This document shows, piece after piece, positions 31,157 to 32,554 of a DNA stretch of 64,000 bases. The stretch lies in NCBI RefSeq assembly GCF_030848505.1, contig NZ_JAVDDU010000001.1:310001-374000 (forward strand). Direction: 5' to 3'. The notes beneath the pieces are model-generated. The model worked only from the letters and a program-made list of their open reading frames with translations. It was not told the origin of the DNA and did not search any database. Source of the stretch: Marinimicrobium hydrolyticum (GTDB lineage Bacteria > Pseudomonadota > Gammaproteobacteria > Pseudomonadales > Cellvibrionaceae). Made by a program: the position numbers and the translations under genes. Positions within the stretch are counted from its first letter, which is position 1, and every line of letters starts with the position of its first letter.

Positions 31157-31215
31157 GGTGCTTTAGTCGAGTGATGCACGGAGGCAAATGACCAAACCCA
31201 GCCTCCACCATTCGT
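31157..31215. repeat. Remnant of the palindromic repeat family
   Basis: The left part (GTGCTTTAGTCGAGTG) matches the left flank of copy 3 at about 31720, and the right part (GGAGG...CCAAACCCAGCCTCCAC) matches the right end of the inverted copy at about 32064-32095. The middle is missing, so this looks like a deletion derivative joining the two ends. Confidence 0.55.
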
Positions 31216-31310
31216 TGAGAGCTCTGAAGCCCGAAGAGCATACCCAACCGCATTTTGCAGCCATTCTCAGTTCCCTGGAAATGTCTGACTTTCAAGTGTA
31301 GCCCTGGGTC

Positions 31311-31470
31311 TTTGGTCGAGTGCTCCGAGTGGGGCAGGCACACCCGGACACGCCGTGAATACTTCCGTGTAGGCTTGGATGCGGCATCCCTGCCGCATAC
31401 AGTCCGGGAATGCCTGCCCCACTCTCCGCGGTGCCATCCTGAAAGTTTCTGGAAATAAGGGAGTTGGGTG
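31311..31470 (+). repeat. Long palindromic repeat, copy 2
   Basis: Arms at 31327-31349 and 31402-31424 (23 nt, two mismatches) enclose the shared core GGACACGCCGTGAATAC and an inner perfect stem ATGCGGCA-TCCC-TGCCGCAT (31379-31398). The whole 160-base unit, including the flanks TTTGGTCGAGTGCT and GGAAATAAGGGAGTTGGGT, aligns with copy 3. The stem sequences differ between copies but stay complementary. No coding content is supported. Confidence 0.85.
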
Positions 31471-31579: not shown

Positions 31580-31722
31580 CCAATCACGGAACAGCTTCGG
31601 ACGCCTCTGAACAACACAGCTGACACTAAGGCAGATTGGGTAAGGCTTAGTGGCACCCAACCTCATCAATACAAAGCTCTATAGAGAGCCAGCAAGATGG
31701 CTCACTTTGTATTTTTTGGCGC

Positions 31723-31881
31723 TTTGGTCGAGTGCTACGAGTGGGGTAGGGACTCCCGGACACGCCGTGGACCCATCCATAGGGGCTTGGCACCGACTTC
31801 CTGTCGGTGACAGTCCGGAAGTCCCTACCCCACTCTCCGCGGTGCCATTCAGAAAGTTTCGGGAAATAAGGGAGTTGGGTA
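31723..31881 (+). repeat. Long palindromic repeat, copy 3
   Basis: Arms at 31739-31761 and 31813-31835 (23 nt, one mismatch) surround the core GGACACGCCGTGGACCC and the inner stem CACCGAC-TTCCT-GTCGGTG (31791-31809). Relative to copy 2, the outer arms (GGGTAGGGA for GGGCAGGCA) and the inner stem have changed on both sides so that pairing is kept. The flanks are nearly identical to those of copy 2. Confidence 0.85.
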
Positions 31882-31909: not shown

Positions 31910-32083
31910 GGGTTTGGGGAGCTACCTTCGGGACTGTATGCGGCAGGGATGCCGCATCCAAGCCTACAGGGATGATTCACTAGGCACATCCATGTGCCTA
32001 GCCCTACGGGCAGCCTGCGGCTGTGCTAATCGTCTTTCCTGACGATTAGTCACGGCGTGTCCCGGAGGTAGATCGCCAAACCC
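31910..32083 (-). repeat. Inverted palindromic repeat, copy 4, interrupted by a 70-bp insert
   Basis: Arms at 31910-31936 and 32057-32083 pair imperfectly. The inner stem at 31938-31957 is the exact reverse complement of that in copy 2, followed by CCAAGCCTACA. The core is split at ATTCAC / CACGGCGTG by the segment 31981-32050, and CAC occurs on both sides (31978-31980 and 32051-32053). Confidence 0.75.
31981..32050. mobile_element. 70-bp four-hairpin insert within repeat copy 4
   Basis: The insert is almost entirely tandem hairpins: TAGGCACAT-CC-ATGTGCCTA, CCC-TAC-GGG, CAGCC-TGC-GGCTG and CTAATCGTC-TTTCCT-GACGATTAG. Removing it together with one CAC restores the uninterrupted core seen in copy 2. 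That fits insertion with a 3-bp target duplication. Mobility is inferred from this single event. Confidence 0.5.
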
Positions 32084-32164: not shown

Positions 32165-32554
32165 CTAGGGGCTTTGCAACAGCATCCGACTCCAACGCGG
32201 AGCGAGTTTACGCGCACATTCAAACAACGCCAGTCCACTGGCGGCGCCCGCCATGTTCGCCAAAATATCCAGCCAGCTAAACGTACGCGGCGGCATAAAA
32301 TGCTGAGCGACTTCAATACCGGTGGAGTAGGCCACCAGTATCAACCAGCGTTGCCAGACGGGCATGTTTGGGAATGCGAAGGTTATGGAAAGCCCTGCTA
32401 CCAAATAGCCCGTGAAATGCATAAGTTTGTCGTTGTACACGGGCACATAGTCGCCCGGAGTGCTGGTCAAACTTAGATAAGTATAAATTACCAGCATCAC
32501 GGCAAACTGAAGCAAGCACAAGGGTCGCCACACCCGGGCAATAGTATTCATCAT
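32165..32554 (-). CDS. VanZ-like membrane protein
   Basis: Small inner-membrane protein of the VanZ-like family; a role beyond the family name cannot be read. The 129 residues have about four hydrophobic segments (about 11-30, 43-62, 66-82, 97-113). The family motif NDKLMHFTGYLVAG is near the start of the second segment, and YSTGIEVAQHFMPPRTFSWLDILANMAGA follows (typical VanZ E-x2-Q...D-x-L-N pattern). Two consecutive ATGs (32554, 32551) lie behind GGAGG/AAGGA. It is 28 bases after the Usp gene and may be the last gene of the sulP-usp transcript. Confidence 0.82.
   Translation of the reverse strand: MMNTIARVWRPLCLLQFAVMLVIYTYLSLTSTPGDYVPVYNDKLMHFTGYLVAGLSITFAFPNMPVWQRWLILVAYSTGIEVAQHFMPPRTFSWLDILANMAGAASGLALFECARKLAPRWSRMLLQSP

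Follow-up and report, generated by a model that had tools for sequence, protein, structure and literature searches.

The window analysed here is a stretch of 64,000 nucleotides from the genome of Marinimicrobium hydrolyticum (Cellvibrionaceae; assembly GCF_030848505.1, contig NZ_JAVDDU010000001.1, positions 310,001 to 374,000 of the forward strand), and all positions are counted from its first letter. Towards its middle a dispersed palindromic repeat occupies the intergenic region between what we take to be aceF and a VanZ-like gene (ORF 32165-32554), both names having been assigned from a reading of the translations alone. Copy 4 of this repeat carries an insert in its core and is referred to as filled, whilst the inverted copies 2 and 3 lack the insert and are referred to as empty (Table 1). 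A partial copy, consisting of the right end of the repeat, is found at 31179-31208, shortly past the end of the aceF reading frame.

Table 1. The host repeat, its copies and the parts of the insert, with positions in the window
Feature	Position	Strand	Basis or remark
Host palindromic repeat, copy 4	31910..32083		minus-strand fold, z -8.4
Host outer stem arms	31910-31934 and 32059-32083		part of copy 4
Host hairpins, first and second	31938-31957 and ~31965-31976		part of copy 4
Inverted copy 2 of host core, empty	31305..31450	-	sequence comparison
Inverted copy 3 of host core, empty	31717..31850	-	sequence comparison
Insert, four-hairpin T-loop module	31981..32050	-	fold z -6.8; covariance-model matches in own genome and relatives
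Hairpin P5, minus-strand apical loop CATGGATG (CANGGAYG)	31981..32000	-	fold, loop survey
Hairpin P4, GCCC-GTA-GGGC	32001..32011	-	fold
Hairpin P3, AGCC-GCA-GGCT	32012..32022	-	fold; covaries
Hairpin P2, minus-strand apical loop AGGAAA	32026..32049	-	fold; covaries
TCAC (minus strand GTGA), read as the module's conserved 3' end	31977..31980		right-hand GTG in 58/143 distinct copies
TCAC of the host repeat, in the empty copy as ATTCACGGCG	32050..32053		empty-copy comparison

The preliminary description of this DNA had seen the insert as four adjacent hairpins that take up nearly all of its length, and this is borne out by the folding energy of 31978-32053, which as single-stranded DNA is -21.8 kcal/mol against a shuffle mean of -8.3 (z -6.8) with none of 200 shuffles reaching it. 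The trinucleotide CAC is indeed present on either side of the insert, although the direct repeat to which it belongs is 4 bp (TCAC) and not 3 bp in length, giving a repeating unit of 73 bp. The same period of 73 bp is also found in tandem arrays of the module in relatives, such as G118 and Microbulbifer taiwanensis. The sense RNA strand of the insert is the minus strand, which matches the strand of the module in its tRNA-linked copies and is also the strand of the VanZ-like gene. It could therefore form part of the mRNA tail of that gene, with transcription in the window being something that we infer.

The host repeat carries other inserts too. A different hairpin insert of ~90 bp is found in or at the apical loop of the first host hairpin in three further copies, L040 (G000:C23:434970-435168), L051 (G000:C3:3384) and L047 (G000:C23:2135), which suggests that the loops of these repeats accept inserts repeatedly.

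Junctions of the insert and its empty sites

Read on the RNA strand of the module, the junctions in the window are GCCGTGA|C...AGTGA|ATCATCC. A right-hand GTG is present in 58 of 143 distinct module copies irrespective of what flanks them, and a left-hand GTG in 12 of the 143. The triplets at the two junctions are equal in only 19 of these copies, several of which are internal junctions of tandem arrays, and in three more filled copies of the host repeat from this genome the left side reads GCCGAAC, without the left repeat. From these comparisons the left CAC in the window is the conserved end of the module itself, the right CAC having already been present in the empty host repeat. The preliminary description had taken the two as a 3-bp target duplication, a reading that has to be given up. 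A variable target duplicated at both ends, as would be expected of a transposable element, is not what the module copies display, as the right-hand motif is constant and equal triplets are confined to 19/143. It follows as a general caution that equal triplets flanking a hairpin insert need not mean target duplication.

It had further been proposed that excision of the insert restores the sequence of copy 2. Over 14 nt across the junction this holds, the removal of 73 bp giving ATTCACGGCGTGTC, but the bases adjacent to this stretch differ, being GGGATGATTCAC against GGAAGTATTCAC. The difference is systematic, as the junction seen in the window, GTGAATCATCC on the minus strand, is also found in filled copies of other genera, whereas all of the empty sites that were read carry TGAATACATCC or a close form of it. 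A pattern for the host junction gave 83 sites in six genomes, and 50 of these were read: 29 of 30 returned loci (L329 was left out) and 21 sites from 20 hand-picked loci, the latter including every locus with a listed module match abutting the site, a choice that raises the proportion of filled sites. The sites with TGAATCATCC are filled in six out of six cases (the window, three in G053, one in G048 and one in G006). A longer junction, TGAATACATCC or close to it, is present at 44 sites, 2 of them filled and 42 empty, and all 42 empty ones retain two bases (AC) that are missing from the window-type filled copies.

Had the empty sites arisen from the window-type filled form, by deletion between its TGA repeats, they would carry TGAATCATCC. 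None of the 42 has this scar, thus the empty copies are not deletion products of that form. The earlier statement that the 70 bp were inserted, when compared with copies 2 and 3, is therefore upheld, and the search for filled and empty sites in related genomes that went with it found both at the same core position in three genera. From the comparison of these sites the insertion is genuine. The window-type filled form is common to three genera and so does not represent a recent insertion event in copy 2; most likely this form has spread as a unit rather than arisen anew there.

Three other origins for the insert have to be weighed against this. It could be a new micro-transposon, a 70-bp element made entirely of hairpins that generates a 3-bp target duplication on insertion, for which the CAC/CAC junction in the window, the filled and empty sites at the same place in three genera and the module's presence in unrelated flanks would all speak. 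Such an element is very improbable given the scarcity of equal junction triplets, the filled host copies of the same genome that have no left repeat, the duplicated motif being the module's own conserved end and the lack of a Y1 transposase in the genome. Another possibility is that the segment is ancestral to all host copies, with copies 2 and 3 having lost it by deletion between the TCAC repeats. A direct repeat could drive precise deletion of this kind and the filled form is old, being shared by three genera, yet empty sites are the great majority, they retain the AC that the window-type filled copies lack, and none of the 42 carries the TGAATCATCC scar, a test which covers the window-type filled form. 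Deletion from the rarer long filled form, of which two sites were read, is compatible with the scar test, and even so we regard an ancestral segment as a highly improbable origin.

That the insert is a REP-type sequence mobilised by a RAYT (TnpA-REP) might be suggested by it being short, palindromic, intergenic and present in many copies. A search of its own genome, which is 99.8% complete, for a Y1 (HUH) transposase (Y1_Tnp, PF01797) was negative (0/1), whilst the control search was positive in 5 of 14 known genomes; this search thus gave no enzyme that may move the module, and identity with a REP/RAYT system was rejected. A RAYT in the past is compatible with these results, but mobilisation of this kind has hardly any likelihood.

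Distribution of the module and its tRNA-linked setting

A DNA search with the window repeat including its insert gave 47 matches in its own genome, with the part made up of the insert only being found in several unrelated flanks. Two covariance models were used to look further. R1 was built from 18 copies, and R2 from 39 diverse copies with the two outer loops masked and without E. coli in the training; the training rows of R2 were 39 of 77 usable masked copies, amongst them the masked window module. R1 has 35 matches in the genome of the window and detects the module in 108 of 144 genomes of the bacterial family and in 106 of 274 of the class, whilst R2 finds it in 113 of 274 class genomes and in 77 of 299 genomes of a phylum sample. 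The window module scores 80.6 bits with R2, its masked copy having itself been a training row. Amongst the listed matches of R1 to named genomes, strong ones are found in Erwinia, Pseudoxanthomonas, Motiliproteus, Pseudomonas, Alteromonas, Bordetella and Hydrogenophaga; these come from a pattern scan that gave at least 114 loci, 52 of which were then searched with R1, and the list of taxa is no census. In the surveys of tRNAs, loops and junctions the named group consists of the top match of 38 R1-matched loci, with weaker ones omitted.

The stems of the module covary: 98.4% of cells are paired, there are 132 two-sided changes, and none of 500 shuffles reached as high a value. In this test a stem length of 5 bp or more had been a criterion of selection for the outer two helices but not for the inner two. 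The insert had been suggested to be either a new micro-element or a satellite of the repeat family. The former does not fit a module that is present in 113 of 274 class genomes and forms part of RtT-like tRNA-linked elements, and the latter is only half right, in that the module does ride in this repeat but occurs far more widely without it.

A number of further observations were made on module copies. In another class of the same phylum L355 and further loci in G437 give at least 17 module matches, many of them equal-scoring. An insert of ~49 bp with two hairpins is nested in the P5 loop in L029 (G000:C1:213869-213994), L031 (G000:C26:81616) and L087, and is also found in another genus; L087 is in Marinimicrobium agarilyticum, and the P2 loop of L029 holds yet another insert. 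In L034 (G006:C1:1504031-1504101) a strand of P3 has been copied to give a perfect palindrome of 54 nt, which is likely to be the scar of a template switch. Modules in L246, L250 and L252 lie in dispersed repeats and are followed by TTTTGGTTACTTTTCTTTG-like sequence, suggesting that escape from the tRNA setting is not limited to this bacterial family.

Within the genome of the window 15 of 29 modules checked, out of the 35 matches in all, lie no more than 400 bp from a tRNA gene, as do 24 of the 48 loci examined in the class (12/29 and 12/19), these 48 being best-scoring loci of which 19, from 18 genomes, were hand-picked from the class matches of R1. The tRNA-linked modules of the class are usually situated 70-95 bp past the tRNA 3' end. 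For modules downstream of a tRNA, in all groups, the strand relation is the same in 44 of 47, with the tRNA-sense strand being the one with the GGA loops; L029, in the genome of the window, has two modules with the opposite relation. The layout of these elements begins with the tRNA, usually a terminator, an inverted copy of the tRNA 3' end and a T-arm strand ending in TTCGA, after which the module follows; beyond the module come GAGTGAAT and then a direct copy of the tRNA 3' end with its CCA. Of 33 tRNA-linked loci, 21 have downstream of the module a sequence that fits the 3' end of the local tRNA better than that of any other isotype, and in 18 the inverted arm shows the same preference. The unit of Erwinia rhapontici folds into five hairpins arranged in a ring, which the tRNA-derived stem closes. 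There are also near-whole tRNA copies with the T-loop interrupted by the module, of tRNA-Ala in L077 and L081 and of tRNA-Ser in L267 and L272. The commonest recognisable setting of the module is the T-loop of a duplicated tRNA 3' end. For the insert described here there is no tRNA gene in the window, and it is the host repeat, not a tRNA end, that adjoins the module.

This arrangement is that of the RtT RNA (RF00391). At tyrT of E. coli K-12 there are four RtT units, which have their parts in the same order as the tRNA-linked modules. R1 matches three of these units weakly (14.8-16 bits) and R2, which was trained without them, all four (21.9, 21.2, 20.3 and 12.4 bits). In the opposite direction the Rfam RtT model matches 51 of 274 class genomes at E 0.001 and 18 of 274 over its cut-off; the places are often those matched by R2, with six pairs coinciding amongst the listed matches of the two models, and R2 matches the RtT site at 9 of the 10 best RtT loci. 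When run on 17 module loci the RtT model gave 44.7 bits for L311, with the cut-off at 45, and 25-29 bits for L264, L307, L299 and L207. Its match in the genome of the window (31.7 bits) begins 56 bp past tmRNA and closes with a repeat of the tmRNA 3' end. At L389:562-918 and in L368 (G000:C12:188461-188988) an RtT-like unit lies behind the tmRNA gene, with the 3' end of that gene repeated in it. The same order of T-loop hairpins, as recovered by R2, makes the module a relative of RtT.

The insert itself is not an RtT unit, having no tRNA end and not being listed by Rfam. The window region has no Rfam match over the gathering threshold and RtT is absent from the 27 matches obtained at E up to 10. 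The sub-threshold matches on the window, such as Ysr224 (31.3 bits, cut-off 70), were set aside as a resemblance of stems.

Origin of the insert, its GGA loops and known systems

The insert is likely to represent the T-loop module of an RtT-like element in escaped form, a copy of it having entered dispersed repeats and spread as their cargo. The usual element is a palindrome of the tRNA 3' end, placed directly after the tRNA gene, with one arm holding the row of four hairpins inside the T-loop (TTCGA | module | AAT-CCC) and the unit ending with the tRNA 3' end and CCA. In this bacterial family the module has probably also been copied into dispersed palindromic repeats at a GTGA or ATGA sequence, with the filled repeat then multiplying as a unit, and the module in the window would be the cargo of one such repeat between aceF and the VanZ-like gene. 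The direction of this spread is what we infer from the settings observed, and with 24 of 48 class loci away from tRNA genes there may be other settings besides the tRNA one, and the spread could have run the opposite way.

At the level of RNA the module is most likely a compact cluster of hairpins that binds protein or stabilises RNA, with two GGA loops that may be CsrA/RsmA-like. It is possible, although doubtful, that the module is selected as a decoy for CsrA/RsmA by means of the GGA loops on its two outer hairpins, as in CsrB, RsmY and RsmZ; it would then act on tRNA by-product RNAs and mRNA tails, a functional reading that is compatible with its identity as an RtT-type module. On the RNA strand the outer loops are often CANGGAYG or AGGAnA, fitting the consensus sequences quoted for RsmA (CANGGAYG) and CsrA (RUACARGGAUGU) in PMC7705225. 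In the 3' hairpin region CANGGAYG is found in 106 of 145 copies against 1.3 expected from shuffles, a count that is biased as the model had seen the loops. Amongst the 27 loops per outer hairpin recovered with the loop-blind R2, 17 hold a GGA, as do both outer loops of the copy in the window, and none holds TCC; weak sub-threshold matches to RsmY/RsmV fall on module arrays in L030 and L197. Against a decoy, no clear association with csrA is apparent, with the module present in 96 of 235 csrA-positive and 10 of 39 csrA-negative class genomes by R1 and in 100 of 235 and 13 of 39 by R2, where the 39 csrA-negative genomes out of 274 are 20 that were listed and 19 by elimination. In addition, GGA loops persist in the csrA-negative assemblies L266, L268, L285, L292 and L293, the RtT of E. 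coli and the modules of several csrA-bearing genomes have no GGA, and the host repeat's own GGA loops in the window are on the strand opposite to that of the module. That GGA loops are universal had been suggested by the R1 matches, and was ruled out by the loop-masked model, in which 10 of 27 are without GGA for each hairpin. The preference for GGA on one strand is thus real without GGA being obligatory, and in most copies, not in all, these loops fit CsrA/RsmA sites, making them candidate sites.

A wider reading of the escaped T-loop module, speculative and on balance rather unlikely, is that RtT, rather than being peculiar to a single enterobacterial operon, is an outpost of a proteobacterial family of structural mobile modules which have the T-loop as their home, grow in tandem, take up other hairpins in their loops, escape into dispersed repeats and, through their GGA loops, link CsrA/RsmA with tRNA. 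If this is true the T-loops of tRNA and tmRNA copies would be the preferred home, within palindromes that locally match the tRNA end of their host, and RNAs with GGA loops would tie CsrA/RsmA regulation to tRNA transcription. A module found across a class, whose stems covary and which keeps to one strand relation with tRNA genes, has locally matched tRNA ends beside it and occurs in escaped copies too, amounts to many natural replicates, with which it may be asked how the module acts and whether tRNA transcription yields a regulatory RNA as a by-product. To our knowledge it is not yet understood what the RtT repeats do, and a literature search gave no account of RtT-like T-loop elements as a class-wide family, nor of an escaped module in this bacterial family.

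Of the known systems, the sponge RNAs CsrB, RsmY and RsmZ resemble many module copies in having hairpins with an apical GGA on one strand, but the module differs from them in being tRNA-linked or dispersed, in having no recognised promoter or terminator of its own and in having no clear co-occurrence with csrA. BIME and REP elements are likewise intergenic, multi-copy and rich in hairpins, and enterobacterial interspersed elements similar to the rtT transcript have been assigned to BIMEs (PMC2965389), yet the module differs from them in sequence and in its fixed order of four hairpins, and there is no RAYT in this genome. RtT of E. coli is described in PMC4986893 as an RNA freed from the tRNA transcript, with RtT also annotated in Actinobacillus (PMC4986893) and in Thioalkalivibrio (PMC8092127). 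Unlike RtT, the copy in the window is the T-loop module only, without tRNA sequence and inside a dispersed repeat, and its outer loops carry the GGA that the E. coli loops lack. It is the tRNA-linked elements that resemble RtT in the inverted tRNA 3' end, the T-arm with TTCGA, the four hairpins of the T-loop, the GAGTAAT, the tRNA 3' end with its CCA and the tandem units after a tRNA, with the covariance models of the two matching each other.
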